Positions 93 to 42,602 of a stretch of 64,000 bases of DNA are shown in pieces. The notes under the pieces are model-generated. The model had not been told where the DNA came from and ran no database searches. It saw nothing but the letters and a program-made list of their open reading frames with translations. The stretch's first letter is position 1; every line of letters begins with the position of its first letter. Origin of the DNA: a virus; the IMG/VR virus record IMGVR_UViG_3300036770_006434, positions 124,001 through 188,000 of that record, one strand, 5' to 3'. The position numbers were made by a program, and so were the translations under genes.

Positions 93-118
93 GGAAATCC
101 ATCCGTTTCTTGTGTAAC
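93..118 (+). promoter_or_regulatory. Putative late promoter 1 (GAAA-14-GTGTAAC)
   Basis: GAAA at 94-97 is followed after 14 bases by GTGTAAC at 112-118, 44 bases before the ATG of the first tail gene. The same two boxes recur before many structural genes. Promoter function is inferred from recurrence and position. Confidence 0.6.
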
Positions 119-3809: not shown

Positions 3810-3827
3810 TCCCTGATTCCGTGTAAC
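3803..3827 (+). promoter_or_regulatory. Putative late promoter 3 before the tape measure gene
   Basis: GAAA at 3803-3806, 14 bases, GTGTAAC at 3821-3827. The first box overlaps the last codons of the previous gene and the ATG of the tape measure is 60 bases downstream. Confidence 0.6.
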
Positions 3828-6800: not shown

Positions 6801-9800
6801 AGACCTCGTCTTTCCTTCAAAGAGCCATGGGCAGACTCAATTCTCCCTCGGGTTCTCTGGCCTTGGCTCTTGGGCCGTCATTTGCGGCGGGACTAATACC
6901 CGAAGGCAGTGGTGGAACCACGTCTGGAATGGGATTTGGTGCCCTTAAAGGTGGTCTGAGTGGAGCGGGAGTCGGTGCCGGTATAGGCTCTTTCATCCCC
7001 GGAATCGGAACCGCCGCTGGCGCTGGTATCGGTGGTGCCATCGGCTCTGCTTATGGCTTCCTGTCTAAATTCAGAGAATCTTTTGAAGAACTGTCCACAA
7101 GACTGGAAGAGTCTACGAAAGAAGTGACGCAGGAATTTGACAATACCGCCAAAATCATCAGGCTGAGAGGGGAGGCTAGCCGCGCCCGCGCCGAAGGAAG
7201 AGAAAGAGACGCTTATGCAGCGGAAAACGAGGCTGCCGATCTTGTCCGAGGGACTAGAAACCAGAAATACATGGACTTTTTGGGGAAGAATCGTTTTAAC
7301 CCCAATTTGGAATCTGATTTTGCAGAGTTTGGCGGCGCAGAAGTTGAATCCAATTTCTTGCGCAAACAGATGCTTTATGCGGGAAAACTGGGGGAAAAGC
7401 CCCTAATACCTTTTGAATCTATGCTTTCAAAAGGCGGCCTTGGAATGGCGTTAGGCTCTATTATCCCCGGAATAGGACCGTCTCTTGGTGCTGGAATAGG
7501 CGGTATGGTTGGATCGGGTTATATTGATAAGTTTCTGCCAAAAGAATATACAAAACAGCCATTTGAGGAGTCTGCCGCAGAAGAAGCGTCCAAAGGATTG
7601 CGACAAATCGTAAAACAGCTACCCAACATTGTTTTGGCGAATCTTCAGACCAAAGCGGCATCTGACCCGTTAGGCGCTATGGCCCTCATCGCTGGGATGA
7701 GCGGCATGCAGGGTTCGGAGGTCAAAGCACTGATGTCAAATGTGAACCCCGATTTCGCCAGAAGCGCGGTAATTGGAGCCACATCTCAGGCCATCCGTGG
7801 TAACCTGAACGTCCAACAAAATGCCACCCCCAATCAGGCATATAGAGATTTGAACCAAGCTCAGATTACCGAAATGGTGATATCCCGCAAAATGAGGGCT
7901 TCACTATCCGATCTTTCGTTCTCTTCTGGCAACCAAATCGAGCAAAACAGACAGAGACTTTTGCTTGGCAAAGAATACCTCTCCGATTCGGACAGATTGA
8001 CGATGGAGAGAAATTACGGTCAAGCCAACATAGAGAGAGAAACCGCGCAAAAACGCAAGACTCTTGTCACGGGTGGAATTGCGGACCTATTTTCGCAACT
8101 TGGACAACAAAACGTTCTTGATCCAAAGGTTTTTTCAAGAATTGGGTCAATAGAGAGGTCAAGAGACCCGTTGAATGAATTGCTGAAACTACAGTCGGTT
8201 CTTTCAAATTCTCAAAAACCGTCTGATTTAGCTGGGGTATACACCAAAGAATTCATGAACCAACTCGGCGAAATGATTCAAAGCATCAAAGTTTTGAATG
8301 AAACCGAAAAACTGAACATCAAAGTCAATAACGAAACCAACGCTTTGATGCAGAAAGATTTGGCGGAGAAAAAGACGTTTGAATACGCGGTTCAAATGGG
8401 CAGAAAGCGCGGCGATGACGCTAGGGAAGCAGTTGCCTTGGCGATGAGGCAGGGAGAGCTTAGCTCCGTTATTGAAAACAATATATTGAATGAGGACGAG
8501 ACAGAATACCGCAACTCTCTAAGGGAGGGCAAATCTGGCTTTAGCGAATCTGGGCTATTCTCTTTGTTGGCGTCCAACTCGAAAAGGAGAAGCATTCTGT
8601 CGTCAAGAGAGTCCGATAGCGCCATAATCAATGCGTATAAAGAAAACCCAAGTCTTTTCTCTGGGTCCGAAATCGGTTCGTCCATTTTTGGCGACGCAAA
8701 GGAAAGGGGCAGACTTGGCAAAACTCAAGGCTCCTTCCTCGGCGGCTTCCGTTCCGTCATAGAAGGTGCCAAACGCGACCTTCTGGACTTCTCGGAAATC
8801 GGTGCCCAAGTCGCGAATTCCCTGCAATCCAATCTGACCAGTTTTTGGACCGATTTCGCGACCGGCGCTATCAGCGGAAAAAACGCCTTCCGCAGTTTCG
8901 CGGCTTCAGTTCTGACGGACGCCTCCCGGATGCTGGCCTCCAAAGCGTTTTCGGCGGTTCTGTCATCTATCCCCGGGTTCGGTCTCTCTTCCGGCGGTCG
9001 CGTCGGCTTTGCGGCTGGCGGCATGGTCCCGGCAATGCTGACCGGCGGCGAATACGTGTTCGGCCCCAAAGCGGTTCAACAGATTGGGCCGGAAACCCTC
9101 CGCCGCCTGAATGGCTACGCGAACGGCGGCATGGTGCGCGGCGGTTCCGGCGTGCGTGATGACGTGCCGGCGGACTTGCCGACGGGTTCTTTTGTCATCA
9201 AAAAGAGTTCGGCCCAACGCCTTGGCAGCGGTTACCTGAACGCTTTGGCGGAGGGTAAGGTCCAAAACAGGTTCTTGGGCGGCCTCATGAGCACGGCTCT
9301 TGGCGGTGCCTTGACTGGCGGCGTCCTTGGCGGCGGTCTCGGCTATCTGGTCGGCGGCAAGAAGGGGGCAATCGGCGGCGCTCTACTTGGCGCAATCGGC
9401 GGCGGCTTATATGGGTATAACAGCGGCCAAATGTCAGCCGGAATGCAGGCGTATGGGCTGCAAAACGAAGTGGCTGGACTCAGCGTAGGGACTAAGGCGA
9501 TGCTGGGTATCGGCGCTTCCGCAGGTCTCGGTCTCCTTGCCGGCGGTATCTCGTCAAAGGGACTAAAGAAGGAGTCCTCTTACATTTCCGAAGATCAGGT
9601 CCCGGCCCTTCGCGCGCAACTGGAGCAGAACCAGCTGGCGGGGCGGAAAGCTGGCCAACAAGTTTTCCTGCAAATCAACCCGCAGGGCGGCTACTCTCTG
9701 GCCGGATTTGACAGTGCCCCCGCTACCCGGCGCTGGGCAAATGGCGGGGGAGTCGATCTCCCGATGTCATCCGGCCCAAGTTCCCCGATGTTCCAAGGTT

Positions 9801-10075
9801 TTTCCGAGGGTGGCGAGGTCGGCATTCCGATGTCCGTCGGATCATCTTCCCCCTCTGTTTCCAGCTCCCCTTCCGTAGACCAGCAAGTCTACGTCAAAAT
9901 CGAGATCAACAACCAAGGCGGCGTGTCTTCTTCTTCCAAGTCCGGCGGCGGCGGCATGGACTCCCAAGCGGCGGGCAGACTGGAGAAGTTGGTCCGTGGA
10001 TGGACACAGGACGAGCTGGTCCGCCAGAGCCGCTCGGACGGGTTCTTTACCCAACGCTCCAGATATATACAGTAA
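3887..10075 (+). CDS. Tail tape measure protein
   Basis: A 2,062-residue protein, the longest gene in the window. Residues about 60-260 read as the TP901-type tape-measure core, with conserved Phe/Ala/Gly helices and an 'ARGGSVIGNALKTIF' block. Long helical stretches alternate with hydrophobic Gly/Ala segments (about 1000-1060, 1190-1220 and 1790-1860) expected of a protein that inserts into membranes during DNA entry. A lambda H-like stretch ('FATGAISGKNAF') lies near residue 1650. It sets tail length and scaffolds tube assembly. The next gene follows after 6 bases. Codon use becomes AT-richer roughly between 5740 and 8720, then returns, suggesting a recombined middle part. Confidence 0.92.
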   Translation: MADQTSVTFNYDLAPSAQVQSKLQRQFNEFEKRLIFKGPFGQMNREVRTFQSEMERANQRVITLGASFAVLSSSIRILKDIVRSTIEVEKSLTDINAVFGLSAQNLDKFSKDLFNVARNTSQSFDKAAEAAKEFSRQGLSAEETLKRTRDALILTRLANLDVSKSVDVLTASINGFQKSALNSTEIINKLATVDAKFAVSSSDLAEALSRAGAAASDAGVSFDQLLGIVTSVQQTTARGGSVIGNALKTIFTRVERRDTIEAFRSLGVAVEDSSGQILGAIPLLQNFARSYDKLSDSTKKQAAELVGGVYQINILKAALGDLARANGIAAQATRTAAGATDEAIERNEVLNKTLDATLTRLGTSFKQIGSNIGSLSFANPLKDLLNTIQGGGIMKALEDASGGAETAGGKVAQMFLSGFGAAITYGLAPLLAFGVGRIVTGTFKNLFKDAKEITFLNKEASTQAQIQNQLVGLYRAGGAALQQQLSTMSTMTEKAAYLNTLMRSSSAAVVSPRRMAQFMAKGVPRSAGGYIPMGEESAAIAAGVGGAPAGARPVYLPSFNRGGGQRGIVANTSEFIVPGAAGGAIFNREMIQKYGLPPGSTPVAAGGYIPNAAEGVIKTHVDYSSFRSSRGTFVSKESIAQIDDLLKAITKAGSGQEARQLGKGVIDLAEGLNRMSKGKVWEELGRIYTLFDRGYYGGTPAGPGQLPDMPSSPRGTGVGAPFTAIPYMPQVYAEKYFKKNFSSLRLKDLSYASGLFDLTSDSGDRFLAEQIGRRSSNFNALNKNGNIQGLALADAITASRGLAYGTTLTDQFNQTVQASIQSGKGILTAYREAIQQLTTETTNRKQINSIIRKSIPTNVAFEKERGESLALARLENKSIKGSISRQAILNAAVQRVEGGARLSDLTPQQRGLFISGLRQKAANDLGFGGQDISTVLRDKDARSQINQIVSREMAVINSQPREIPPLLSGRGKTSSFLQRAMGRLNSPSGSLALALGPSFAAGLIPEGSGGTTSGMGFGALKGGLSGAGVGAGIGSFIPGIGTAAGAGIGGAIGSAYGFLSKFRESFEELSTRLEESTKEVTQEFDNTAKIIRLRGEASRARAEGRERDAYAAENEAADLVRGTRNQKYMDFLGKNRFNPNLESDFAEFGGAEVESNFLRKQMLYAGKLGEKPLIPFESMLSKGGLGMALGSIIPGIGPSLGAGIGGMVGSGYIDKFLPKEYTKQPFEESAAEEASKGLRQIVKQLPNIVLANLQTKAASDPLGAMALIAGMSGMQGSEVKALMSNVNPDFARSAVIGATSQAIRGNLNVQQNATPNQAYRDLNQAQITEMVISRKMRASLSDLSFSSGNQIEQNRQRLLLGKEYLSDSDRLTMERNYGQANIERETAQKRKTLVTGGIADLFSQLGQQNVLDPKVFSRIGSIERSRDPLNELLKLQSVLSNSQKPSDLAGVYTKEFMNQLGEMIQSIKVLNETEKLNIKVNNETNALMQKDLAEKKTFEYAVQMGRKRGDDAREAVALAMRQGELSSVIENNILNEDETEYRNSLREGKSGFSESGLFSLLASNSKRRSILSSRESDSAIINAYKENPSLFSGSEIGSSIFGDAKERGRLGKTQGSFLGGFRSVIEGAKRDLLDFSEIGAQVANSLQSNLTSFWTDFATGAISGKNAFRSFAASVLTDASRMLASKAFSAVLSSIPGFGLSSGGRVGFAAGGMVPAMLTGGEYVFGPKAVQQIGPETLRRLNGYANGGMVRGGSGVRDDVPADLPTGSFVIKKSSAQRLGSGYLNALAEGKVQNRFLGGLMSTALGGALTGGVLGGGLGYLVGGKKGAIGGALLGAIGGGLYGYNSGQMSAGMQAYGLQNEVAGLSVGTKAMLGIGASAGLGLLAGGISSKGLKKESSYISEDQVPALRAQLEQNQLAGRKAGQQVFLQINPQGGYSLAGFDSAPATRRWANGGGVDLPMSSGPSSPMFQGFSEGGEVGIPMSVGSSSPSVSSSPSVDQQVYVKIEINNQGGVSSSSKSGGGGMDSQAAGRLEKLVRGWTQDELVRQSRSDGFFTQRSRYIQ

Positions 10076-13388: not shown

Positions 13389-13400
13389 TTTTTGTGTAAC
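13376..13400 (+). promoter_or_regulatory. Putative late promoter 4 (AAAA-14-GTGTAAC)
   Basis: AAAA at 13376-13379 lies in the end of the K-like gene and GTGTAAC at 13394-13400 follows its stop. The I-like gene starts 39 bases downstream. This gives the I and J genes their own late promoter. Confidence 0.6.
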
Positions 13401-13439: not shown

Positions 13440-14162
13440 ATGCAAAAGGAAGCGCAAATTGTCAAAATCATTCTGGGTGGGGCTCTTGGCCGGAAATTCG
13501 GCAAAGAGTGGAATCTGCGCGTGGGGTCTGTGGCGGAAGCCGTTCAAGCGATTGATGTGAATACGGGCGGCAAATTCAGGGGACACCTCTACAAAGAGGG
13601 TAACAAAAAATTCTACAAAATCGCGCTTGGCAGGAAGGATAATCTATTGGACAAAGAGGAGCTGTGCAATCCCAGCGGCAAGAACGATATATACATTTTG
13701 CCGGTAATCAAGGGTAGGGAAAAGGGGCTGACCAAGATACTGGCGGCAGTAGCGATTGCGGCAGTTACATATTTTACTTTTGGTGCTGGTGGATTTTTCG
13801 CAAACGCGGCGCTTGCAACAGCGGGATATAGCGCAGCCGCTTCATTGGCTATCGGTGGCATCGTCCAGCTCCTCACCCCAGTCCCGAACTTCAACCAGTC
13901 CCCGAGCCAAGACAGTTCCAGAGGTTCCAATATTTTTGCCGGCAACGCCGCTTCCGCCTCCCAAGGGGAAGGTGTGGCGCTGGTATATGGCCGCGCTTTG
14001 GTGGCCCCGACCCCAGTCTGTTTGTCGTTCTCTGCCGTGGATCAGCTAAACGTCGGCTCAGACAGTTACGCCACTCAGGAATACGATATAGAATACGGTG
14101 ACGGCGGAGTGGTCAACTACATCCCGCGCGCCCCGAATCCGGACGATAACGTTCCAAGCTAA
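13440..14162 (+). CDS. Tail assembly protein, lambda I-like
   Basis: A 240-residue protein with an N-terminal ubiquitin-like beta region, a hydrophobic Ala/Gly segment at about 100-145 and a Gly/Asn/Pro-rich end, the layout of lambda gpI. The ATG at 13440 is chosen because an earlier in-frame ATG at 13392 lies inside the late promoter. The stop overlaps the start of the J-like gene (TAATG). gpI is needed to assemble the tip initiator but is not a major virion component in lambda. Confidence 0.85.
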   Translation: MQKEAQIVKIILGGALGRKFGKEWNLRVGSVAEAVQAIDVNTGGKFRGHLYKEGNKKFYKIALGRKDNLLDKEELCNPSGKNDIYILPVIKGREKGLTKILAAVAIAAVTYFTFGAGGFFANAALATAGYSAAASLAIGGIVQLLTPVPNFNQSPSQDSSRGSNIFAGNAASASQGEGVALVYGRALVAPTPVCLSFSAVDQLNVGSDSYATQEYDIEYGDGGVVNYIPRAPNPDDNVPS

Positions 14163-21110: not shown

Positions 21111-21581
21111 TTAGGGGCTGGGCCAAGCGGGGAGGCTGGCGGCGTCCACCGAAACAGTGAGAGTGTGTCCCAGCTTCCAATTCGCGATGGCGATGTGCAT
21201 CTCTTCCTCGGCCCCTTTGTGAAGATTCATATAAGCCTTGGAAATATCGGCTGGATTGGCGCGAGTAACCTTACTGTCCCCTTCACTCATAGAAACCCAG
21301 AGTAACCCGCCACCAGCCAATACCTGCTGCGCTTGCTTTCGATAGTATTCTTTTTGATACAGGAGCCCGTAAATAGCAGCCTCAGAATCCCCGAAGCCAC
21401 CGCTGATACACCCGCCGCTGTAAAAGAAGTCTGTGGTCAACTTGTTGTTTAAGTCTCCCAAAGAAGTGCTAGATGTAATCCACCCAGAGATGAACGCCAC
21501 CGAAAGACTGGTCGGAGAATTGATGTCGTCATATATCCCGGAAGCCAGCGCGAGAATGTCGTTTGTGCAGTAAGCGGACAT
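21111..21581 (-). CDS. Head-tail module protein, unknown
   Basis: A 156-residue acidic to neutral protein. An N-terminal segment rich in Ser/Ile/Leu (about 5-50) is followed by a helical region. It lies 3 bases upstream of the tail-tube-like paralogue in the same operon. Its size and place would suit a neck or tail-completion protein. No SD is visible before the ATG at 21581. No domain was recognised. Confidence 0.65.
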   Translation of the reverse strand: MSAYCTNDILALASGIYDDINSPTSLSVAFISGWITSSTSLGDLNNKLTTDFFYSGGCISGGFGDSEAAIYGLLYQKEYYRKQAQQVLAGGGLLWVSMSEGDSKVTRANPADISKAYMNLHKGAEEEMHIAIANWKLGHTLTVSVDAASLPAWPSP

Positions 21582-21643: not shown

Positions 21644-21668
21644 GTTACACTGGATTCGCGGCTGGTTA
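21644..21668 (-). promoter_or_regulatory. Putative late promoter 5 (TAAC-14-GTGTAAC)
   Basis: GTGTAAC reads on the - strand at 21644-21650, with TAAC in place of the usual GAAA box 14 bases upstream. The gene start at 21581 is 62 bases further. The upstream box is degenerate. Confidence 0.45.
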
Positions 21669-25038: not shown

Positions 25039-25719
25039 TTATTCTTGGGGTTCTTTGGCGGCCTTATCAGCGCGGCGGTCCTTGACGGAACGCCCACCAA
25101 CCTTAATCGTGCCGTCAAACGCTTCGGCGAGGGCGGTCTTCAAATCGACCGCGACCTGAGCTTGACCGACCGGAATCTGGGTCTGGCCCGGGATTTCCGT
25201 GACGGAGGCGATGGCCTCGGCGACCGGGACTTCCTGCTTGGCGGCCATAGCGGGCTTGACCGGGGCTACGGGAGCCATGGCTTTGCCCTTTTTCTTGCCG
25301 CACATGAGTTTGCCCATTTTCTTCTGATAAGCGGCGAACGCTTCATCATCGGGCAGGCTCTGGAGGTCGGAAGCCAGCATTTGGCGGTCTTCGTCATCCA
25401 GATCGAACTCTTCGTCAAAAGCGGCCATGCGCTCTTGGAATTTTTGGGTGGCTTCGGCGGCGGCCTGAGACGACTTCAGGTCCTCAACCTCTTTCTTGAC
25501 GCCGTCAAGCGAGGCTTGCAGTTCGCTCGCGCGCTGCTCGGCTTCGGCCTTGGCTTTTTCGAGATTTTGGACGATGTTCTTTTCGGCCGCGAGTTTTTGC
25601 TCCCAATCGGAAGTGCCTTTTTGAATGGCGTTGACAAAGTCTTCCACAGCGGCGACGGATTCCATTTTGCGGAGTTCCGGCCAGAGGGACTTGAGTTGAT
25701 CCAGTGATTCGATCTTCAT
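25039..25719 (-). CDS. Nested scaffold protein from an internal start
   Basis: An in-frame internal ATG at codon 348 of the long gene opens a 226-residue, strongly helical protein: a coiled coil at about 35-95, an acidic segment, then an Ala/Pro/Val/Lys tail. A late-promoter-like motif (GTGTAAC at 25736-25742 on the - strand) lies 16 bases upstream. Protease-plus-nested-scaffold pairs are known from lambda C/Nu3 and many other phages, where the short form is made in excess. Expression of the short form is inferred. Confidence 0.65.
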   Translation of the reverse strand: MKIESLDQLKSLWPELRKMESVAAVEDFVNAIQKGTSDWEQKLAAEKNIVQNLEKAKAEAEQRASELQASLDGVKKEVEDLKSSQAAAEATQKFQERMAAFDEEFDLDDEDRQMLASDLQSLPDDEAFAAYQKKMGKLMCGKKKGKAMAPVAPVKPAMAAKQEVPVAEAIASVTEIPGQTQIPVGQAQVAVDLKTALAEAFDGTIKVGGRSVKDRRADKAAKEPQE

Positions 25720-26760
25720 AGTGGCGGTATTGAGGGTTACACAGGTTTTCTGTTCGGTTATGATTTTTTCTTCTACTTTTTCAGCAGAGGCATTTGACTC
25801 TTGACTGTTTTTTGGCGCGATTTGTGCGTTTGATTCGGATGCAGCGGCAGCGGTTTCAGAGGGGGTTGAGGCATCGGATTTTTCCTTGATTTCTTCGTTT
25901 TCATCGTCTTCTTCATCCTCCATTTCTTCCTCGTGATTTTTGTCTTTGCACTGACAATTTTCGCACTTGCAATCGGGGCAGCATTTTTCCGTTTCTTCTT
26001 CCGCCTTAACGAGTTGGGTAACTGGCAAAATTCCTTTGACGGGAGCGGCGGGATTTTGCACAATGGAATAACCCAAAATAATTGCGTCTCCTTCGATGAT
26101 GCGGAAAACTTCTTCGCCCTCTGTCGTCTTGCCGTTGCCGCCATTGCAGCGGAGTCTCTTCTCGTAATCACGGAACTCGGCGTCAGATTCCGTGTAAATC
26201 TTTGCGTCCCAAAGATTTTTGGAGCCAACTCCAATGGAATATTCATTGAAGGCGATCTCCCAAGACATGGACAACGCATCTGTATCCAGAGAGTCGCCGG
26301 TTTTCGTAATATACTTGGCGAGCAGCGGTTGAACCGCTTTCCACAGGACTCCCGCGAAAGACATATTGAAGGGCTCCTGTAGATTGGCCGCCTCTTCATT
26401 GGTCAGTATCCGATGATCATCCAAGGTTGTCAGGGCCGGGAAAAGGACTACGCCCACGACCTTGGCTTTGTCATGGTCCGTCGAGATATACTTGTGCTTG
26501 GCTGTAGCATGAATCTCTATCGCCTTCTTGGCGGTAATACCGTCGCCGTTCTTGTTGATAAGGCCGCCGACCGCGCCGTCTGACGAGATGTAGAGGAGGT
26601 CCGGGTCATTCTCCGGGTTCACGTCCGGCGGCAAAATCCCCTTGAGAGGAGCTAGCGACGCTTTGGCCACGAATCTGTCGGTATCCGTGATGGCCGCGAC
26701 CTTCGCGGTAGACGTAAAAACAGACGTGTAACGGTAAGAATTGGTCTTGGAACTTGGCAT
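25039..26760 (-). CDS. Head maturation protease fused to scaffold
   Basis: A 573-residue protein in two parts. Residues 1-250 form a globular alpha-beta domain with a His-containing 'STDHD' segment (about 94) and a Ser/Trp stretch ('LSMSWEIAF', about 166), compatible with a phage prohead Ser-His protease of the XkdF or T4 gp21 type. Residues 255-345 are a low-complexity Cys/Glu/Asp/Ser linker with several CxxC-like pairs. Residues 348-573 are helical, coiled-coil and Ala/Glu/Lys-rich like a scaffold. An in-frame ATG at 25719 with its own promoter motif would yield the scaffold alone. The protease assignment is by context and loose motif. Confidence 0.7.
   Translation of the reverse strand: MPSSKTNSYRYTSVFTSTAKVAAITDTDRFVAKASLAPLKGILPPDVNPENDPDLLYISSDGAVGGLINKNGDGITAKKAIEIHATAKHKYISTDHDKAKVVGVVLFPALTTLDDHRILTNEEAANLQEPFNMSFAGVLWKAVQPLLAKYITKTGDSLDTDALSMSWEIAFNEYSIGVGSKNLWDAKIYTESDAEFRDYEKRLRCNGGNGKTTEGEEVFRIIEGDAIILGYSIVQNPAAPVKGILPVTQLVKAEEETEKCCPDCKCENCQCKDKNHEEEMEDEEDDENEEIKEKSDASTPSETAAAASESNAQIAPKNSQESNASAEKVEEKIITEQKTCVTLNTATMKIESLDQLKSLWPELRKMESVAAVEDFVNAIQKGTSDWEQKLAAEKNIVQNLEKAKAEAEQRASELQASLDGVKKEVEDLKSSQAAAEATQKFQERMAAFDEEFDLDDEDRQMLASDLQSLPDDEAFAAYQKKMGKLMCGKKKGKAMAPVAPVKPAMAAKQEVPVAEAIASVTEIPGQTQIPVGQAQVAVDLKTALAEAFDGTIKVGGRSVKDRRADKAAKEPQE
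25736..25760 (-). promoter_or_regulatory. Putative internal late promoter 7 for the nested scaffold
   Basis: GTGTAACCC reads on the - strand with TAAC 14 bases upstream. It lies inside the long coding region and 16 bases before an in-frame ATG. Confidence 0.55.
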
Positions 26761-26770
26761 GCCTAATCGG

Positions 26771-26796
26771 GTTACACGTAAAATAGACCTGATTTC
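26771..26796 (-). promoter_or_regulatory. Putative late promoter 8 (GAAA-15-GTGTAAC)
   Basis: GAAA at 26793-26796, 15 bases, GTGTAAC at 26771-26777 on the - strand. The start of the protease-scaffold gene is only 10 bases beyond the motif. Confidence 0.6.
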
Positions 26797-29231: not shown

Positions 29232-31247
29232 TTACTTAGGCGCTTCCGTCCTACAGTGCCGCAGGATAGCGGCGTCCACGAAATCCACCTGATAAGACTC
29301 GGCGATCTCATCAATCTCCCGACCGATTTCCAACGAGATGGCGGGCGGATTTTCTACGGCAGACGCTACGGATTCTCTCCATTTCGCCGGAGGAACGGTA
29401 GCTATGATATTGTTGACCAATAACTTGCAGGCGTTGCTCTGGACTTCGTTCAATCCACCCTTGACCTTGAAACGCTTTTTCAAAGCACCGGCAACCGACT
29501 CGGATAAATTGCCGTATTCCTTGAGAAATACGGTATAGTTTTTGAGCGAGAAAGCATCCGAAGCCCGGCTTGTCCCGATGGGTGACGCCTTTCTGGTGCC
29601 GGACTGCTTGATTCCGCTCGTGCCAGCGGGGCGACCATTCGCGGCAGGACCGCCGCCGCCCTCTTCGTCGTCTTGTTTCCCGCCAATCAAAGGATTGTAA
29701 TACCCGTCTTCGCGCGCTTTTTTGTATTCCTTCTGGCCATTGCGCATTTCATTTACGTTCGGAAGGACCTGAGTTTGAATGGCTTCAACCACCTGTTCGG
29801 CGGTAAGGATGCCGAGCTGACCGAGCTGTGTATAAATCCGGGACATCACCGCTTCATCCTGCAAGTCAATGGGTTGGAACCCGATTTCTGGAACTGTCCT
29901 AAAATTCATAGTCTCGCAGATTTTCTTGATTTCCGGCATGAGGAAATCGTTCAGGAATCTGTTCTGCCCCTCCTCCAGTCGTTGGATGAAGATTTTAGCC
30001 TTCATCTGGGCATTGGCGAATTTATCGTTACCAGAGAGGATGGATTGCAGCCCTTCTCGGATATCATTGTCCACGACCTGATACTTTTCAGGTCCAAGAA
30101 TCTCTTGGATCGGGGGGACCAGCCACTGGCCCTTGACCGTATAGTCAGCTACCAGCACACGGCCAACCGTCTGGTTATTCATCAGCGACTGGACGCGCGC
30201 GATATTGTTCTGATTGATGCCGTTGCCGCCGTTATACTGATTCGGCGCTTCACCCATCGTGATCAGAAGGATGGCGTGCTCAATGGTCCGCGCCAGAGCC
30301 TTGTCCATCTTGGTTAAAGTCAGTTTCCACTCCACATCCGGGAGAACCGGCCAGACCATTGGAACTGCCAGCGGCTCATAGTCCTGTTTTTTGTAGAAAA
30401 AGAACCGCAGTCTCTTGGGGTCCATTTGCAGGTATACGCCCATAGGATTGGTGGCACCGTATTTGATCTGTTCTTTGGCTTCGGGCGGCAAATCCTTGTA
30501 AACCTGCTTGTCCTGCTCCGTCACAGGATTGCGCAGGCGCTCGCATTCATACGTGGAAAGGAGCCGCACATAGGTATACGGGAAACTCAGACCGGATGGA
30601 ACGAAGACGTTTGACGGGTTTAGCAGTTCATATCGGATTGGAACCCGATTCGCTTTTGCGCCATACGTGGCCCTAAAATTGTCGTAATAAGCAGGGCCGA
30701 ATTGACCGTCAAAACGGTAAAGGAACACGTTCCCGGAGCGGTAATATTCGCGCAGAGCCTGTTCCGTTAACTTGTTCATCTGCACGGCCTTAAACCACTC
30801 TTGGAAGAAGGTTTTGACCGTCTGGTTCTCGGACTTGACGAAAAGCGGCTGGGTGCTGAACTCCACTGCCACCTCTATGGCGTTCCTGATGATCGCGATG
30901 CCTGCCCAAGCCTTGGCACAAAGGTTGATAGCGTCCGTGGCCCCGGCATATTCCCTGCCGCCCGTGAACCCGATATACGGAGACGGCATGGCGTTGATGT
31001 TTTGGAATGCCCCCGCGTCGGAAATGGAGCTGTTAAGCTGGCGGCCACGATAGACCGTCTGAGAAGCGCCCCCAGAGGAGTCTGCGGCAAGCGCCACTTC
31101 ACCGCCGTAGTTGATTTCAGGAAAAGGCGTGGGATTCACCGAAGCACTGGACTGGGCAACGGGATGGTTGATATTGAAAACCGGCGGCTGAGCGGCGATT
31201 TTCCGAGCATCCCAATACGAAGAGGACTTGGTGTATTTTCTTGGCAT
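29232..31247 (-). CDS. Portal protein
   Basis: A 671-residue protein just after the large terminase. The N-terminal 100 residues are polar and disordered. Residues about 110-470 show the portal pattern: 'AGIAIIRNAIEVAVEF', a wing region, then a long helix ('EEGQNRFLNDFL') of the stem. A Gly/Pro/Asn linker at about 545-590 and a helical C-terminal domain (about 595-671) follow. The portal forms the dodecameric DNA gate at the head vertex. The fibre-like gene follows after 14 bases. Confidence 0.88.
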   Translation of the reverse strand: MPRKYTKSSSYWDARKIAAQPPVFNINHPVAQSSASVNPTPFPEINYGGEVALAADSSGGASQTVYRGRQLNSSISDAGAFQNINAMPSPYIGFTGGREYAGATDAINLCAKAWAGIAIIRNAIEVAVEFSTQPLFVKSENQTVKTFFQEWFKAVQMNKLTEQALREYYRSGNVFLYRFDGQFGPAYYDNFRATYGAKANRVPIRYELLNPSNVFVPSGLSFPYTYVRLLSTYECERLRNPVTEQDKQVYKDLPPEAKEQIKYGATNPMGVYLQMDPKRLRFFFYKKQDYEPLAVPMVWPVLPDVEWKLTLTKMDKALARTIEHAILLITMGEAPNQYNGGNGINQNNIARVQSLMNNQTVGRVLVADYTVKGQWLVPPIQEILGPEKYQVVDNDIREGLQSILSGNDKFANAQMKAKIFIQRLEEGQNRFLNDFLMPEIKKICETMNFRTVPEIGFQPIDLQDEAVMSRIYTQLGQLGILTAEQVVEAIQTQVLPNVNEMRNGQKEYKKAREDGYYNPLIGGKQDDEEGGGGPAANGRPAGTSGIKQSGTRKASPIGTSRASDAFSLKNYTVFLKEYGNLSESVAGALKKRFKVKGGLNEVQSNACKLLVNNIIATVPPAKWRESVASAVENPPAISLEIGREIDEIAESYQVDFVDAAILRHCRTEAPK

Positions 31248-31260
31248 TCTACTTTGGTGG

Positions 31261-31286
31261 GTTACACGAAATACAGAGGTGTTTTC
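31261..31286 (-). promoter_or_regulatory. Putative late promoter 9 before the portal gene
   Basis: GAAA at 31283-31286, 15 bases, GTGTAAC at 31261-31267 on the - strand; the portal ATG at 31247 is 13 bases beyond. Confidence 0.6.
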
Positions 31287-31310: not shown

Positions 31311-33206
31311 TTACCCGACGAAAGCGTATGGGAACTCTACCGGGCCGGTTTTGATCTCCATGGCCATGGCTTCGGTATACATTTTGACACACCAGTTGGC
31401 GATCAGCAAAGCGCTGTAACTGTCTTTGCGGACGCGAGTTGGGCCAGTGGTCCGGCGCAGGTTTTGCGGCAGCTCAAACCCCATGGTGCCAAGGGTCGAT
31501 ATCTTCACCTGAATCAGAGCGCACTCCTTCTTTGTCAAATCCACGAGAAAGTCCTGATTCGATATAAACTCCGATGCAGTAGTTTCCTTAAAGTCTTCAT
31601 GACCAGATAGGATGGACAAGTCCAGACTCATAGCCCGACTGACGGACGAGCCATGGGCAGCTATCTTGCCGCCGAACAGGATGTTTTTGTGGTCAAAACA
31701 GGACTGGAGGTATTCATTGGAGGACCTCTGCCACTCAGAAGAGAACGGCTGCTTTTGGACTATCTTGCCGGCGGTCTTGTTGTAGCCCCGGCGAATCTCG
31801 GTAACCACCTCATTGAAGGTGTGCTTCTTGAAATCGGCTCCTATGTCCAATAGCTTTATATCACTGTCCTGAAACAGTTTAGACTGGTTGCAGGAATTGA
31901 TAAACTCCAACTCATCGCCGCCCGACGCGTCTACCCCAATATACACGATATTGAAATTTTTCATCAGGTAAAAGAGATACAGCATGTGGTCCTTCAGATT
32001 GCCGCCGGCCACCGCGTAAGAGTGGACGACCATGCCGATTTTTTTGCCATCCGTCGCGCGCGTGACCACTTTCATCAGGCACATGGCGAAATGGTCTGAA
32101 GACTCTGATCCAGAAAGACTTTGGTCAATGCCAAGGACGTATTCAGCCTTCTCTTCTCCGGTCAATTCCAGACACGGCGCTTCCCCATCCGGTATAGTGC
32201 ATTCTTGCATCTTTGAAGCGCGGTAAAACCCGTCCGAGTCATTGGTAAATTGAGCGCCATACTCACGATTGAACATGGACTCGGAAGTCTCGCGCTTGGC
32301 AGCCATGATTTCCTCCATGTCCAGAAGTCCGGCAGGCGCGGCCTCCCAAGATAGTCGCGAAACGAAGTAGCCGCGACCGGCGGCCTTGAATTCATCGTAT
32401 TTCACCTTGTCTCTGACCGGGTCCAGCATGAGGATGTCGGTCCAGCTCTTGTATTGGCGGTATAGATGCTCAAACTGGTAAGACGCGGAGGACAGGAAGA
32501 TGACCTTTTTGCGGTCATCCACGATGGTCCTATCCTTCTCGCTCATAAGTCCTTGCGCGATCATCTCGCTTTCCCTTTCGTCCACCTGTCTCTGTTCCGT
32601 GATCTTGTTTTTGGACGCAAGGAACGGCCTTAGAATCTCGGCGATGATGTTTTCCGGCAGGAACGCGAACTCGTCCACGATCAGAACGTCAGCGCGAACG
32701 CCACGGATGGACCGACCGTCGCCAAGGGGCAGACATCGGATGACCGCGCCGTTGGGGACCTGCAAAATGTATTCATCCGTCTTGGTCCTGAGATCGTCCG
32801 GGAAGCAGGCTCGCAAAAGCCCGGCGCTTTCCTGCTTGATCAGTTTGGCGCACAATTCCAGAATCGCGCGGCTTTGGCGAAACGAGTAAGAGGCTATTAC
32901 TATACGGGCGTTTGGATTGAATATGGCCCAATACAGGGCGAAGGTGCTGACGGAATAGCTTTTTGAAAGTCCGCGTCCCCAAACCCCGAGATTATAATCA
33001 TTTCTGGCCCAGCCTTTTATGATGATTTCTTGGAACGGGAAGAGTTTGATTCCGCCCAGAATGTCCATCAAAAACGCGGGGTTGTGATACAGGAACTCCG
33101 CCAATGTTGCCTTAGCTTCCTCGTCACTAAGGTCGCCTTCCAGAGCAGAAAATTCAGCAAAGACATTTTTTATAGGACGAACGTTATTGATGCCAAGTTC
33201 TATCAT
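31311..33206 (-). CDS. Large terminase subunit (TerL)
   Basis: A 631-residue protein with an N-terminal packaging ATPase: a deviant Walker A at about 77-84 (GRGLSKSY), an adenine-binding region around 58-60 and Walker B at 174-179 (VLIVDE). The C-terminal RNase H-like nuclease has acidic motifs 'GIDQSLSGS' (about 380) and 'GVDASGGDE' (about 440). The start overlaps the stop of the ERCC4-type nuclease gene (ATGA). TerL translocates and cuts the genome at the portal. Confidence 0.93.
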   Translation of the reverse strand: MIELGINNVRPIKNVFAEFSALEGDLSDEEAKATLAEFLYHNPAFLMDILGGIKLFPFQEIIIKGWARNDYNLGVWGRGLSKSYSVSTFALYWAIFNPNARIVIASYSFRQSRAILELCAKLIKQESAGLLRACFPDDLRTKTDEYILQVPNGAVIRCLPLGDGRSIRGVRADVLIVDEFAFLPENIIAEILRPFLASKNKITEQRQVDERESEMIAQGLMSEKDRTIVDDRKKVIFLSSASYQFEHLYRQYKSWTDILMLDPVRDKVKYDEFKAAGRGYFVSRLSWEAAPAGLLDMEEIMAAKRETSESMFNREYGAQFTNDSDGFYRASKMQECTIPDGEAPCLELTGEEKAEYVLGIDQSLSGSESSDHFAMCLMKVVTRATDGKKIGMVVHSYAVAGGNLKDHMLYLFYLMKNFNIVYIGVDASGGDELEFINSCNQSKLFQDSDIKLLDIGADFKKHTFNEVVTEIRRGYNKTAGKIVQKQPFSSEWQRSSNEYLQSCFDHKNILFGGKIAAHGSSVSRAMSLDLSILSGHEDFKETTASEFISNQDFLVDLTKKECALIQVKISTLGTMGFELPQNLRRTTGPTRVRKDSYSALLIANWCVKMYTEAMAMEIKTGPVEFPYAFVG

Positions 33207-34189
33207 AGGGAAACTGGGTCAGGTCTTTCAAAGGACAGTCTCTTCAAATCGTATTCACCCTGCAAATCCACGGACTTCACTGCGTCTCCTGCCGCGAGCA
33301 GTTTGACCACAGCCATAGATGATTCATCCCTGTTTTTCACGAACAGCGCCTGAAAGGAGGTCGGGAAACGGTGGAGCAAATCGCGCAGATTGTGAAAGAT
33401 GTGTTCTGGCGTGACACGGATGTGTCCGAATTGCCGCTTCAGGTATGGGATAGAGTTGTAGGCGAGCGCGTCGGACAGCGGTTGTTCTACCAACATGATT
33501 ATGTAGGCACCGGTTTCCTGCGCCCGCTCCAGCTCGCGAACGAAGCGGGACAGATTGGAGTCGCCGGCCCGGGTCTCTCTGTCCGACAAGGTGCCTAAAA
33601 AATCCGACAGGTTCTTTCTTTCGATGTAGATGCCGATATCACGGTCCGGGGGCAGCCCGTAGTCGCCGCAGACCAGTCTTTCCGATACAGTGGGGACTGG
33701 CAAATCCAGCGGTTTCTGTTCCCGCGTGTCCATAATGACCTTGGCGGGCATAGCACCGCTTTCCGGCAAGCCACCGCCAAACAGCGGGGTATATCCAAGA
33801 GACTTGCAGATGGCACCGTATCCTTCCGGGAAGGCGGCCTCATAATAGGCGAGGCTGGGACACAGAAGGGAACGTAGCTCGACTTGGGTAGGCGAATAAA
33901 CCAACCCCTTCTCCTCTTTTCTTTTACGCAACCAGTCCAAAGCCCATTTTTTGCCCTCTTCCGGGCACGTTTTCAACCACTTCTTCAGCCCGTTTTTATT
34001 CAGGAACTCCCGCTTCACATACTCGGCGGCGGGAGCCTTGAACGGGATTTTCTCACCTGTCCCCTTGTCAAAAACCGGCGCGTGTTCCGTATAGTAGACC
34101 TCCTGAGTGATCTTGAGTTTCCTCAGATGCTTGTGAAGGGTATCCAGATTCTCGTGCTCTGTTCCGTCTATGGCGCAAATGATGGGCAT
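33203..34189 (-). CDS. ERCC4/XPF-type nuclease
   Basis: A 328-residue protein. The C-terminal two thirds carries the XPF/ERCC4 nuclease signature: D154-T-R-E in 'MDTREQKPL', then GD at 175-176 and E190-R-K in 'IYIERKNLSDF', a good match to GDx(n)ERKx3D. The N-terminal 140 residues are Lys-rich and may bind DNA. It is coupled by 4-base overlap to TerL downstream. A structure-specific nuclease beside terminase could clear branched DNA before packaging, as T4 endonuclease VII or T7 endonuclease I do; that role is inferred. Confidence 0.88.
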   Translation of the reverse strand: MPIICAIDGTEHENLDTLHKHLRKLKITQEVYYTEHAPVFDKGTGEKIPFKAPAAEYVKREFLNKNGLKKWLKTCPEEGKKWALDWLRKRKEEKGLVYSPTQVELRSLLCPSLAYYEAAFPEGYGAICKSLGYTPLFGGGLPESGAMPAKVIMDTREQKPLDLPVPTVSERLVCGDYGLPPDRDIGIYIERKNLSDFLGTLSDRETRAGDSNLSRFVRELERAQETGAYIIMLVEQPLSDALAYNSIPYLKRQFGHIRVTPEHIFHNLRDLLHRFPTSFQALFVKNRDESSMAVVKLLAAGDAVKSVDLQGEYDLKRLSFERPDPVSL

Positions 34190-35280
34190 CAGTGAATGAT
34201 GGTATTCGGGTCAATTCCCCACAGCTCGCCGCGAAGACTGTCCATGGTGCTAAAACGCTCAACCTCCTGTTTAAGGGCGGTCTGCTGCTTTTTCTCGACC
34301 AGTTTGATGATTCGGTTCCTGTCCTCTTTCCTCTTCCAAGCCTGCACCAACGGATGCATGGACGAGGAGCCGGCAATTCTTTCATTGATCATCTTGAATC
34401 GCTCCCCGGTCAGGGTCTTGATAAGGGAGTTGATCTGCTTCAAGTGTTCAGTGGCCTTCTCCTTGGTGGCGTTAAGGGCATCCACTTCCGGCTTGCTCAG
34501 TTTCTTCGTATCATCTTCCAGACTGATGGTGAAACGCTCGTCCAGTTTTCTCACGAGTCTGTCGGCAATGTTTCTTTGCGAGGTAAGACTGGCCAATTGG
34601 ATGTATTGGATCACATGCTCGGCCGAAAGGTCCGGCTTGTCCCAACAGGTGGAGATAAAGACCGACTCAAACACTTCTCGGTCCAGCCTTTTCACGAACT
34701 TGTCCGCTTCCACCTTGAATACAGGCAGCTGCATATAGGACATGAGAGCGTCAAGTCCCTTCTTTTCTTCGGCCGACAATTCTCCGTCATGGAACAACTT
34801 CTTCCCATCCGCTCGCGCCTGAATCTTGTATTCGTTCAACCTGCCGGCCAGAGCCACGATGCTGCGAGGCGGCGCATACTCTTCGGCCAAATCATCTTCC
34901 TTGCGATACCCCGGCTCTATCTGGCGGATATGCGACAAAACGAGCTGGGACTCAAAGCTGGCACCGTTCAGGCGCGGGTTTGAAAACAGAATTCTCGCTA
35001 TTTCCGTAGGGTTGGAACTCTTATACGCGTTTCCGATAAACTCCTTCTGCTCATCGGTCAAGCTGGCGGTTTCCGGCAGCGGCGGAGGTGCCTTCTGTTT
35101 GCCGTTCATTTCAGCTATATACAGGCGGATGGCCTTCCATTCAACGGACCGCTGGTCAAGCGACTCTTTATCGGGGAAGACCATGCCCAAAAGGGTGTTG
35201 GGGTCCAGTCGGAAATTCTGTTCTATCAGTTCCTTCTGGGCTTCGTCCAGTTTTGGGAGGGGTTTCGCTACTTTTGGCAT
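34189..35280 (-). CDS. Probable small terminase-like DNA-binding protein with tandem repeat
   Basis: A 363-residue, highly charged helical protein. The N-terminus contains two related units of about 45 residues: one starting 'LDEAQKELIEQNF' (about 11-56) and one 'LTDEQKEFIGNAYK' (about 74-119). Both look like compact helical DNA-binding units. A long helical, coiled-coil C-terminal half follows. It directly precedes the nuclease-TerL pair with overlapping stop and start. Position and duplicated DNA-binding-like units suggest the genome-recognition subunit, but no family match was established. Confidence 0.6.
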   Translation of the reverse strand: MPKVAKPLPKLDEAQKELIEQNFRLDPNTLLGMVFPDKESLDQRSVEWKAIRLYIAEMNGKQKAPPPLPETASLTDEQKEFIGNAYKSSNPTEIARILFSNPRLNGASFESQLVLSHIRQIEPGYRKEDDLAEEYAPPRSIVALAGRLNEYKIQARADGKKLFHDGELSAEEKKGLDALMSYMQLPVFKVEADKFVKRLDREVFESVFISTCWDKPDLSAEHVIQYIQLASLTSQRNIADRLVRKLDERFTISLEDDTKKLSKPEVDALNATKEKATEHLKQINSLIKTLTGERFKMINERIAGSSSMHPLVQAWKRKEDRNRIIKLVEKKQQTALKQEVERFSTMDSLRGELWGIDPNTIIH

Positions 35281-35286
35281 ATTGTG

Positions 35287-36054
35287 TTACAGTTCTTGGA
35301 CCAGACCCTCTTCTTCTATAATCTCTTTGGCCATAAGCACAAACTTTTTCTTGGCCGTCAGGATAATCTGATATCCGGGGTAGAGGTTCTTTTTGCCGGT
35401 CTTCTTCTTTTTGAAGCCCATAGCCTTGGCCACTTCCCGCTCGGACAATCCCTTTATGATAAGCAGTTTATACATCTTCCATTCTGCGCGACCCAGCTTA
35501 CCCTTCATCTTTTTGTCTATCACGCTCTTTTTCTCCTCTATATTCACGAAATCGCCCTGCATATTCTGGGCTTCCGCCGCGTGCTTGGGCGTATCCAAGG
35601 ACAGAGTCATTTTGATGGCGTGCAAATCCTTCTTCTTCTCTTCCCAGTTCTTGTATGCCGGGCATTCCGAGCACTGAAAGCCAGAAGGGGTCTTGCTGCA
35701 CTGGTCATTGCCCATGTTGAAAACGCAGCCGCCGTTACCCGTGATGCAGGGGCGGGAAAAACTGCTGAGATTGTCACGCCAGATATTGCGAAGAGCGTAA
35801 GTGATGACCTTATTCACCCACCTGCGGAACTCGACGGGTTTGCCGCCGATCACTTTGAGCGGGTCAAACATGTGATACTTGTTGTTTACGTGGATAACCA
35901 CTTTTTGGCGGATATCCTCCCACTCCAAAGTGGCCAGATCGAAGTTCCTGCGTCTCTTATCTATCCAGTAAACGATTTCTTCGTATCTTTGCTCAAAGGA
36001 GAGGGCGGACCTCGCGGTTTCGGCGTAGACTGCTTCCAGCTGTTTGTTGGCCAT
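35287..36054 (-). CDS. Sigma-factor-like protein with inserted cysteine cluster
   Basis: A 255-residue protein. Residues about 20-95 resemble sigma region 2, with 'WEDIRQKVVIHVNNKY' and an aromatic Trp/Tyr/Arg-rich helix 'WVNKVITYALRNIW'. Residues about 188-217 resemble region 4 ('LSEREVAKAMGF' helix-turn-helix, then a basic Lys run). Between them lies a cluster of five cysteines (103, 110, 119, 128, 131) that could bind zinc. The ATG at 36054 is taken because the longer frame overlaps the next gene. It lies amid late genes and is the best candidate to read the GAAA/GTGTAAC promoters. Sigma activity is inferred from motif layout. Confidence 0.65.
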   Translation of the reverse strand: MANKQLEAVYAETARSALSFEQRYEEIVYWIDKRRRNFDLATLEWEDIRQKVVIHVNNKYHMFDPLKVIGGKPVEFRRWVNKVITYALRNIWRDNLSSFSRPCITGNGGCVFNMGNDQCSKTPSGFQCSECPAYKNWEEKKKDLHAIKMTLSLDTPKHAAEAQNMQGDFVNIEEKKSVIDKKMKGKLGRAEWKMYKLLIIKGLSEREVAKAMGFKKKKTGKKNLYPGYQIILTAKKKFVLMAKEIIEEEGLVQEL

Positions 36055-40346: not shown

Positions 40347-40372
40347 GTTACACGTATTCCAGCTGGGGTTTG
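40347..40372 (-). promoter_or_regulatory. Putative late promoter 11 before the fibre gene
   Basis: CAAA at 40369-40372, 15 bases, GTGTAAC at 40347-40353 on the - strand; the fibre ATG at 40282 is 64 bases beyond. Confidence 0.5.
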
Positions 40373-40396
40373 ACCGCTATTTTGGGGAGACGGGCT

Positions 40397-40636
40397 TTAC
40401 TTCTGGTAAAACACGACTACATTGCTCCCGGTCGCGCCGACATTCAAAAGGACCGGAGTCCCAATATGGCTCTCGATCTGTGTGGGAGCCCAAATCGGCG
40501 CGGACCCATTCACCACAGCTGCCCCTGAAACCACTGTGACAGAGAAGGTTACGGCACCAGCCGGAATCTGGGTCTGCCCGGCGGTTACGACGGCAAAATA
40601 AGGAGTAACAGGGTTGTAATCGGATGCAAAGGGCAT
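40397..40636 (-). CDS. 79-residue beta-rich structural protein
   Basis: A small Val/Thr/Ser/Gly-rich protein without charged clusters, probably a compact beta barrel or sandwich of the kind found as fibre knobs or decoration proteins. It has its own late-promoter motif 45 bases upstream and lies before the fibre gene. The ATG at 40636 is the only good start. The function is unknown. Confidence 0.6.
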   Translation of the reverse strand: MPFASDYNPVTPYFAVVTAGQTQIPAGAVTFSVTVVSGAAVVNGSAPIWAPTQIESHIGTPVLLNVGATGSNVVVFYQK

Positions 40637-40681
40637 GGGTGTAAAATGGAAGAGGTGGAAAAGACTGTATTCTCACCACTG

Positions 40682-40706
40682 GTTACACCTATATCCGATG
40701 GATTTT
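40682..40706 (-). promoter_or_regulatory. Putative late promoter 12
   Basis: AAAA at 40703-40706, 14 bases, GTGTAAC at 40682-40688 on the - strand, 45 bases before the ATG at 40636. Confidence 0.55.
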
Positions 40707-40713
40707 TATGTCA

Positions 40714-41514
40714 TTATTTGGGTGGAAACATGGGCTCGTTTTTGACGGAGGCCATTTCTTTCCGTTCAAATCTTTCCACGATATATTTCACGATCTTGGA
40801 CCGGACAATGTCGTCTTTTGTGAAGGAGAAGCAGTGGATTCCATTCTCCCGGCTCTCTTCATCATTGAACATGTCAAAAGTCTTTTGGAAAGCGGACTTG
40901 GAACCGATATCGGACTGGCTAGGATCGCCGCAAATCACGATTTTTGAGAACTGGCCGACACGGGTGAGAATTGTCAATAATTCCTCGCGAGTTTCGTTCT
41001 GGCTTTCGTCTGAAATTATGAACTTAGCGTTAAACGAAGCGCCTCTCAGGAAATTAACGGGAATACCCTCAATCCTGTTCTCCTTAACCAGTCTATCTAC
41101 CTCACATTTCGGCAGCATTTCCTCCATTTTATCGTGAAGTGGTCGAGTGTAAGGCTCCATCTTCATGCCAGCCTCTCCGGGTAGGTAGCCAAGAGACCTA
41201 GACGCGCTTTCTACGACAGAGCGGATATACAGGATATCGGAAACCGCACGTTTCTGCATCAGCATAAGACCAGCTAATACCGAGACATAGGTTTTGGACG
41301 TGCCGGCGGGACCCGAAAGGAAGACTACCTTTGTATTTTTATCCAGAATCAGGTGTATCAACTCCTTCTGCTTGTCCGTTAAATCCGCTCTTTGGGATAT
41401 GGAGAGGTCAAATCCGATTTTGTCCCTCTGCGGGACTTTGGTGGATTTATCCGTTGCTGCGCCGCTATTCCCGCTTGCCTGCGGGACCGCCTTACGAGCC
41501 TTTTTCTTGGACAT
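40714..41514 (-). CDS. PhoH-like ATPase
   Basis: A 266-residue protein with Walker A at about 68-75 (GPAGTSKT), 'DILYIRSVVE' and 'GYLPGEAGMKMEPY' blocks characteristic of PhoH, and an acidic 'IISDESQN' Walker B region at about 170. The N-terminal 35 residues are a basic, disordered leader. PhoH-family RNA helicase-like ATPases are frequent in phage genomes and may act in RNA metabolism. A late-promoter motif lies 73 bases before the ATG. Confidence 0.92.
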   Translation of the reverse strand: MSKKKARKAVPQASGNSGAATDKSTKVPQRDKIGFDLSISQRADLTDKQKELIHLILDKNTKVVFLSGPAGTSKTYVSVLAGLMLMQKRAVSDILYIRSVVESASRSLGYLPGEAGMKMEPYTRPLHDKMEEMLPKCEVDRLVKENRIEGIPVNFLRGASFNAKFIISDESQNETREELLTILTRVGQFSKIVICGDPSQSDIGSKSAFQKTFDMFNDEESRENGIHCFSFTKDDIVRSKIVKYIVERFERKEMASVKNEPMFPPK

Positions 41515-41587: not shown

Positions 41588-41612
41588 GTTACACTTGATT
41601 CCTGACCCTTCT
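41588..41612 (-). promoter_or_regulatory. Putative late promoter 13 before phoH-like gene
   Basis: AGAA at 41609-41612, 14 bases, GTGTAAC at 41588-41594 on the - strand. Confidence 0.5.
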
Positions 41613-42199: not shown

Positions 42200-42571
42200 T
42201 TACTTGATTTCAATCCTCTTGGGTAGCGCTGTTTCCGGCTGGAACGCGGTAACAGTCAGGATGCCATCCTCCAGTTTGGCCTCAATCCTTCCGGTGTCAA
42301 TCTCCGGCACATAAAATGTCTTGGACGCCTTGCCGCGCTTCTGGTTTTCGGCAGTCACCGTGATCTGGCTATCCGCAGCCTCCACGGAAATGTCCTCTTT
42401 CCGGTAACCGGCGACATTGATGTCAATCTGATAGACGCCCTCCTTCTCGTTATAGGTCAGCCCCGTTTGGCTGCCGGCCAGCTCGCCGAACAGGTCGGAG
42501 AAAAAGCTGTCATAGCCGCGAGTAGTCTGCGGGCGGGAGAAGAGACTGAGCGGGTAGTTCTTGATAATCAT
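42200..42571 (-). CDS. Small heat-shock protein, Hsp20/alpha-crystallin family
   Basis: A 123-residue protein with the alpha-crystallin domain at about 35-120: 'YQIDINVAGYRKEDISVEA', 'ITVTAENQK' and 'IEAKLEDGILTVTA', the last being the A-x-L-x-D/n-G-x-L-x-[IV] signature. It has a short N-terminal arm with Phe-rich 'DSFFSDLFGEL' and a C-terminal 'IEIK' end. The protein should act as a holdase preventing aggregation during phage assembly. It occurs sporadically in large phages. Confidence 0.93.
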   Translation of the reverse strand: MIIKNYPLSLFSRPQTTRGYDSFFSDLFGELAGSQTGLTYNEKEGVYQIDINVAGYRKEDISVEAADSQITVTAENQKRGKASKTFYVPEIDTGRIEAKLEDGILTVTAFQPETALPKRIEIK

Positions 42572-42595: not shown

Positions 42596-42602
42596 GTTAC
42601 AC
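42596..42602 (-). promoter_or_regulatory. GTGTAAC box before the Hsp20 gene
   Basis: GTGTAACC on the - strand, 24 bases before the ATG at 42571. No good GAAA box lies 14-15 bases upstream, so it is a weaker member of the late set. Confidence 0.4.

Follow-up and report, generated by a model that had tools for sequence, protein, structure and literature searches.

A diverged phage sigma factor with a conserved four-cysteine linker module, candidate reader of GTGTAA(C) promoter-like sites in uncultured phages

The DNA analysed here, a 64 kb window of a virus record 190,671 bp long, was found to carry a gene whose product is, as judged from family profiles and predicted structures, a diverged sigma-70/ECF-type factor that falls below the formal ECF profile cut-off. 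A module of four cysteines conserved throughout the family lies between its regions 2 and 4, the surrounding gene order is conserved as well, and two promoter classes have gene-specific placement, GTGTAA(C) in this phage and its relatives and TATAAT in the relatives. It is considered likely (probability about 0.75) that this protein, in which the four cysteines would form a knuckle binding zinc in the linker, directs the host RNA polymerase to GTGTAA(C).

The original prediction of a sigma-factor-like protein was borne out by family profiles, by a PDB profile search and by fold searches with two models. By itself, the window protein has no Pfam match and matches TIGR02937 (sigma70-ECF) over residues 22-216 with E=2.7e-6 and 27.1 bits, below the curated cut-off of 42.9 bits; indeed, none of the copies of this sigma factor in the 11 records searched exceeds that cut-off. 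Two aligned sequences used as the query led to 33 IMG/VR loci, and alignment A3 comprises 27 members. TIGR02937 was matched by all 27, Pfam Sigma70_r2 by 25 (best 1.6e-9) and phrog_1740, weakly to moderately, by 24, while Pfam region 4, weak by profile, was seen in just one or two; one relative, L001, scored above the Pfam Sigma70_r2 gathering threshold. The best matches of the PDB profile search were weak and were to sigma factors. Among the phage sigma factors of PHROG 1740, for which no cysteine module is noted, the match of the window protein spans the sigma-2 part only.

Modelled with AlphaFold, the window protein and a relative, L016, both have a well predicted region 2 and C-terminal helical domain and a less certain insert and linker. 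In the window protein, the region 2 helices span residues 21-33, 45-62 and 76-98, mostly with pLDDT >85, and the region 4-like helices and helix-turn-helix (HTH) have mean pLDDT of about 74-96 by block. Foldseek matches of the two models were overwhelmingly to ECF and other sigma factors. The best was an initiation complex containing SigH of M. tuberculosis (E=8.6e-4, probability 1.00), and the sigma-2 fold was matched by 8b3z with TMt 0.68. Whole-chain TM-scores were low because the placement of the domains is uncertain, and the fold evidence is therefore mainly domain by domain. The layout in the models is that of ECF factors, with sigma-2 and a sigma-4-like domain and without sigma-3. Of the two kinds of structure proposed earlier for comparison, sigma70/ECF and T4 gp55, the former gave matches to ECF sigma factors but gp55 gave none in the PDB searches. 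A match to an unrelated fold, named in advance as the outcome that would count against a sigma factor, was absent from both the profile and the fold searches, and a recombinase or structural protein was rejected since neither kind of search favoured such a fold.

Table 1 Features of the window, and additional sigma loci of two relatives. Positions are those of the window unless a locus is named.
Feature	Position	Strand	Remarks
Zinc-insert sigma factor, 255 aa	35287..36054	-	ATG at 36054, stop at 35287; TIGR02937, family profiles, sigma folds
Sigma region 2 domain, residues 21-98	35761..35994	-	Model helices; aligns to ECF sigma-2 structures
Sigma region 4-like helical domain, residues 172-248	35311..35541	-	Model helices; TIGR02937 match reaches residue 216
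Four-cysteine zinc-type insert, residues 102-137	35644..35751	-	Alignment column counts; L016 model
Zinc-ribbon partner, 129 aa	36059..36448	-	Ends 4 nt before sigma ATG; conserved in relatives
363-aa conserved protein, next gene of operon	34189..35280	-	Homolog directly downstream of sigma in 33/33 first-round loci
ERCC4-type nuclease	33203..34189	-	phrog_3490 E=1.7e-8; Pfam ERCC4 above cut-off
Terminase large subunit (TerL)	31311..33206	-	phrog_2 E=4.3e-29
Portal protein	29232..31247	-	Weak phrog_2739 E=0.076; synteny: homologs follow TerL in relatives
GTGTAAC promoter-like site	31261..31267	-	13 nt before portal gene; GAAAAC upstream
GTGTAAC site	40347..40353	-	Upstream of 588-aa gene
GTGTAAC site	40682..40688	-	Upstream of 40377-40679 / 40397-40636 gene
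GTGTAAC site	41588..41594	-	73 nt upstream of phoH (40714-41514)
GTGTAAC site	42596..42602	-	Upstream of 42200-42571
GTGTAAC site	26771..26777	-	10 nt before 573-aa gene (25039-26760)
GTGTAAC site	21644..21650	-	Upstream of 21111-21581
GTGTAAC site	112..118	+	Upstream of 162-1298
GTGTAAC site	3821..3827	+	Upstream of tape measure gene (3887-10075), phrog_4211 E=1.8e-50
GTGTAAC site	13394..13400	+	Upstream of tail assembly gene (13440-14162), phrog_32 E=1.2e-35
Additional sigma loci	L079:127-984 (G001) and G002:C1:129399-130073; L077:648-1241 (G001) and L078:731-1354 (G002)		

The order zinc ribbon, sigma factor, 363-aa protein, ERCC4 nuclease, TerL and portal (Table 1) is conserved among the relatives, in which phoH is often located further upstream. 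The coordinates agree with the earlier description of a zinc-ribbon partner 4 bases upstream of the sigma gene, and almost every locus retains such a partner immediately ahead of sigma (a zinc-ribbon frame in 78 of the 80 second-round loci). In the window copy one of the usual four cysteines of the ribbon, the second, is lost, and C6, H10, C22 and C25 are retained; the nearby H10 could substitute for the missing residue. The 363-aa protein did not match known families, and a role in packaging or transcription is possible given its place before the nuclease and TerL.

Relatives of the sigma factor are encoded by at least 587 viral contigs, and none was detected by tblastn among 50,697 named phages. 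Four loci were on metagenome-assembled genome (MAG) contigs of Flavobacteriales, Flavobacteriaceae or Verrucomicrobiales; these are possibly phage contigs taken up by the binning, and constitute weak evidence on hosts. The C-termini of most relatives in A3 end with D/G-E-[IV]-D-I-[FWYI], resembling a clamp-binding tail, and the window copy lacks this ending. A clamp-binding C-terminal tail analogous to that of T4 (EIDI[FWY] in many relatives) was rejected, as the window copy does not have it and a search of the window's record for a beta-clamp domain (PF02767) found none.

The window contains 16 copies of GTGTAAC where 3.46 would be expected, and none of 100 shuffles reached 16. Across the whole record, 19 called genes have the motif in the 90 nt ahead of their start, compared with a mean of 1.1 over 630 composition-matched permuted heptamers, and the next-best permutation, an overlapping word, precedes 7 genes. 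AAA is present at -17 from the motif in 12 of 35 GTGTAAC sites, which none of 3000 circular shifts equalled, and no other permuted heptamer had a comparable count; pooling all TGTAAC sites dilutes this upstream element. The layout in this phage is approximately RAAAC-N13-GTGTAAC, with an A-rich, -35-like element. ECF promoters carry an AAC-type -35, and by analogy the layout recalls theirs. The genes behind GTGTAAC include those for portal, tape measure, tail assembly, PhoH, the ribonucleotide reductase large subunit and a DNA repair exonuclease. The late-gene setting proposed originally needs correcting, as some DNA-metabolism genes also follow the motif, and with the reductase and the exonuclease among them the set is not purely structural.

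For the relatives, genes were called by a simple ORF procedure, so that some start codons will be wrong. In 715 genes from ten relatives' records GTGTAA was found at -32 to -4 of 64 starts, as against one in a far window; it ranked first among 90 permutations in eight of the ten records and tied for first in another, and was not the top word in the tenth, G003. A second set gave 72 genes with GTGTAA near the start and none far from it, the next permutation, again overlapping, reaching 30. Only placement relative to start codons is enriched in the relatives, and GTGTAAC counted irrespective of position is not. No -35 consensus was found, the one feature in its stead being a run rich in A/T from -8 to -4. 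GTGTAA is ahead of the portal gene in all 15 relatives compared, 7 of which also contain TATAAT there, overlapping the end of the terminase gene, and it is ahead of phoH in most. Conversely, TATAAT is located within 30 nt before the zinc-ribbon-sigma operon in 65 of 87 distinct loci, where GTGTAA occurs in 9; such a host-type sequence before this operon suggests a switch from TATAAT to GTGTAA. TATAAT was not seen ahead of the operon in the phage of the window. The enrichment of GTGTAA was absent in the control phages HTVC008M and T4, which both show TATAAATA. Four called genes of the Pelagibacter phage HTVC008M (L075, 1-50000) have TATAAATA precisely at position -13 relative to their start, a hint that late genes of this pelagiphage are leaderless as well. 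A literature search for GTGTAA promoters, covering few subscription journals, returned nothing matching.

The original prediction had proposed the sigma factor together with the zinc ribbon as the candidate reader of GTGTAAC, and this is supported by position, by the bipartite -35/-10 layout, by co-conservation with GTGTAA and by the presence of a sole sigma-like protein, from which we infer the reading itself. The strongest competing explanation, though an unlikely one, accepts the protein as a sigma factor and assigns GTGTAA(C) to a second phage sigma factor, a host alternative sigma factor or an undetected phage polymerase. Two large relatives, G001 and G002, carry three sigma factors each, namely the zinc-insert one, a 285-aa RpoD-like and a 197-aa ECF-like protein, which suggests a sigma cascade and provides more than one candidate reader in these phages. 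Since all motif-bearing phages compared are relatives, in which motif and zinc-insert sigma factor are not separated phylogenetically, co-conservation cannot alone single out the reader. However, the extra sigma factors were not seen in the records of the other eight relatives searched, several of which are fragments, and in the window's record, which may be incomplete, a strong motif is accompanied by a single sigma-like protein at E<=0.1; therefore, the zinc-insert sigma factor is the leading candidate in this phage. A phage-encoded multisubunit RNA polymerase was rejected, as no RNA polymerase beta domain was found in the four records searched, this phage's included. The 197-aa ECF-like gene adjoins a nucleotide-kinase-like gene in G001 and G002.

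Less probable still is that GTGTAA is a translation signal or an mRNA 5' element and not a promoter. Its narrow distance to the start codon in the relatives, typically about 14-24 nt, would agree with this, but in the phage of the window the motif lies 2-74 nt from the starts and has its upstream element at a fixed spacing. Moreover, GTGTAA is unlike the anti-Shine-Dalgarno (SD) complement, and TATAAT occupies the equivalent position before another gene. The distribution of the SD core is also informative, as it was present in 3 of 51 genes with up to 16 nt between GTGTAA and the start, in 10 of 19 with 17-45 nt and in 161 of 642 without the motif. That SD sequences accompany the longer leaders after the motif and are mostly missing with the short ones fits a transcription start just after GTGTAA, giving very short leaders. 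In the relatives TATAAT is often about 8-14 nt before the zinc-ribbon start codon, and the zinc-ribbon-sigma operons too may therefore be leaderless.

The window protein has five cysteines, C103, C110, C119, C128 and C131, between its region-2-like and C-terminal helical/HTH domains. The earlier description of region 2-like and region 4-like segments flanking five cysteines was thus correct for their placement and for this copy, but only four are conserved: C103, C110, C119 and C131 are invariant in all 27 members of A3, as are Q127, Y134 and W137, whereas C128 is replaced by D, S, G or T in 10 members and kept in 17, so that the conserved module consists of four cysteines and not five. A second set was assembled from the best 80 viral loci of the scan that gave at least 587 contigs, plus four genome loci; it partly repeats the first and yielded 82 readable sequences. 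All 82 keep the four cysteines, and 81 fit the whole pattern, the remaining one having K for Q. The family pattern is CxxC...C...C, with a first pair C-x2-C in 80 of 81 further sequences, whereas the window copy has C-x6-C. About 4 residues past the last region 2 helix the module begins, directly after region 2.4, at a position that sigma-3 occupies in primary sigma factors. In the model of L016, where the insert is better predicted than in the window copy, it folds as a small beta hairpin followed by a helix. With C103, C110, C119 and C131 as the four conserved ligands expected of a zinc knuckle or ribbon, the module is probably a zinc-binding knuckle. No counterpart between regions 2 and 4 was found in the libraries searched or in the literature, where few subscription journals were covered.

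Similarly improbable is that the protein acts as an anti-sigma factor, an adaptor, or a metal or redox sensor and not as a promoter-reading sigma factor: cysteine metal modules do regulate some ECF factors, such as OrbS (PMC9023288) and CorE (PMC8999054), but here the protein keeps both sigma-2 and a C-terminal domain of HTH type, and a dedicated promoter class exists. The strict invariance of the four cysteines is also more in keeping with a structural site than with a sensor that could be dispensed with, although it is compatible with sensing.

CorE and OrbS are the closest metal-associated sigma factors found, and neither has the four-cysteine module of the phage protein. CorE and CorE2 (ECF238) of Myxococcus xanthus respond to copper and have a CXC in the sigma2-sigma4 linker and a C-terminal cysteine-rich domain (PMC8999054); the phage protein shares the linker cysteines, but has them in a single module without a C-terminal extension or cysteine domain. 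In OrbS (ECF243) iron is sensed by a C-terminal cysteine cluster located after region 4.2 (PMC9023288), so that both proteins have a cysteine site of their own, that of the phage factor being between regions 2 and 4. ECF (group IV) factors such as M. tuberculosis SigH, whose linker threads the active-site cleft (PMC6411747), resemble the phage protein in pairing sigma-2 with a sigma-4 or sigma-4-like domain without sigma-3, and differ from it in the four-cysteine module that opens the linker, the gene location near the terminase and the -10 core GTGTAA(C). T4 gp55 with its co-activator gp33 is comparable in proposed role, as a phage sigma factor for structural genes that works with the host polymerase and a small neighbouring partner, and T4 late promoters, like the sites in the relatives, consist of a -10-type element and show no clear -35. 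In contrast to gp55, the phage factor has a region 4-like domain and a cysteine insert; membership of the gp55 type was rejected, as no gp55 match was obtained in PDB sequence or fold searches and the motif is GTGTAA(C) instead of TATAAATA. The accessible part of a survey of jumbo-phage sigma factors (PMC7824862) distinguishes one type that is a minimal HTH from another that is RpoD-like, and mentions no such insert.

According to the preferred reading, in which the zinc-insert sigma factor recognizes GTGTAA(C), the host enzyme would first transcribe the zinc-ribbon-sigma operon from TATAAT promoters, as located in the relatives. The sigma factor, with regions 2 and 4 joined by a linker that opens with the probable zinc knuckle, would then join the host core RNA polymerase, taken as its partner because no phage polymerase beta subunit was found. 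The holoenzyme would go to the -10-type core GTGTAA(C), in this phage also to the A-rich -35-like element, and transcription would be switched to a set of genes that includes those for portal, PhoH and tail, the leaders being often very short or absent; the zinc-ribbon protein would likely serve as co-factor. A further-reaching proposal is tentative: across a large lineage of uncultured phages the zinc knuckle might replace sigma-3 and help to read or hold the GTG of GTGTAA, and the sigma factor and its zinc-ribbon partner might constitute a two-part initiation factor for a TATAAT-to-GTGTAA switch producing leaderless transcripts.

Phage sigma factors are of a known kind, and what seems new is that a module of four conserved cysteines separates regions 2 and 4, in a family that is common to at least 587 viral contigs and had no member in the named phage records searched. 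The sigma factor and GTGTAA, present across the relatives and absent from the two control phages, make up a testable pair of factor and promoter, and with the motif as a guide, sequence alone allows a prediction of which genes are switched in these phages.
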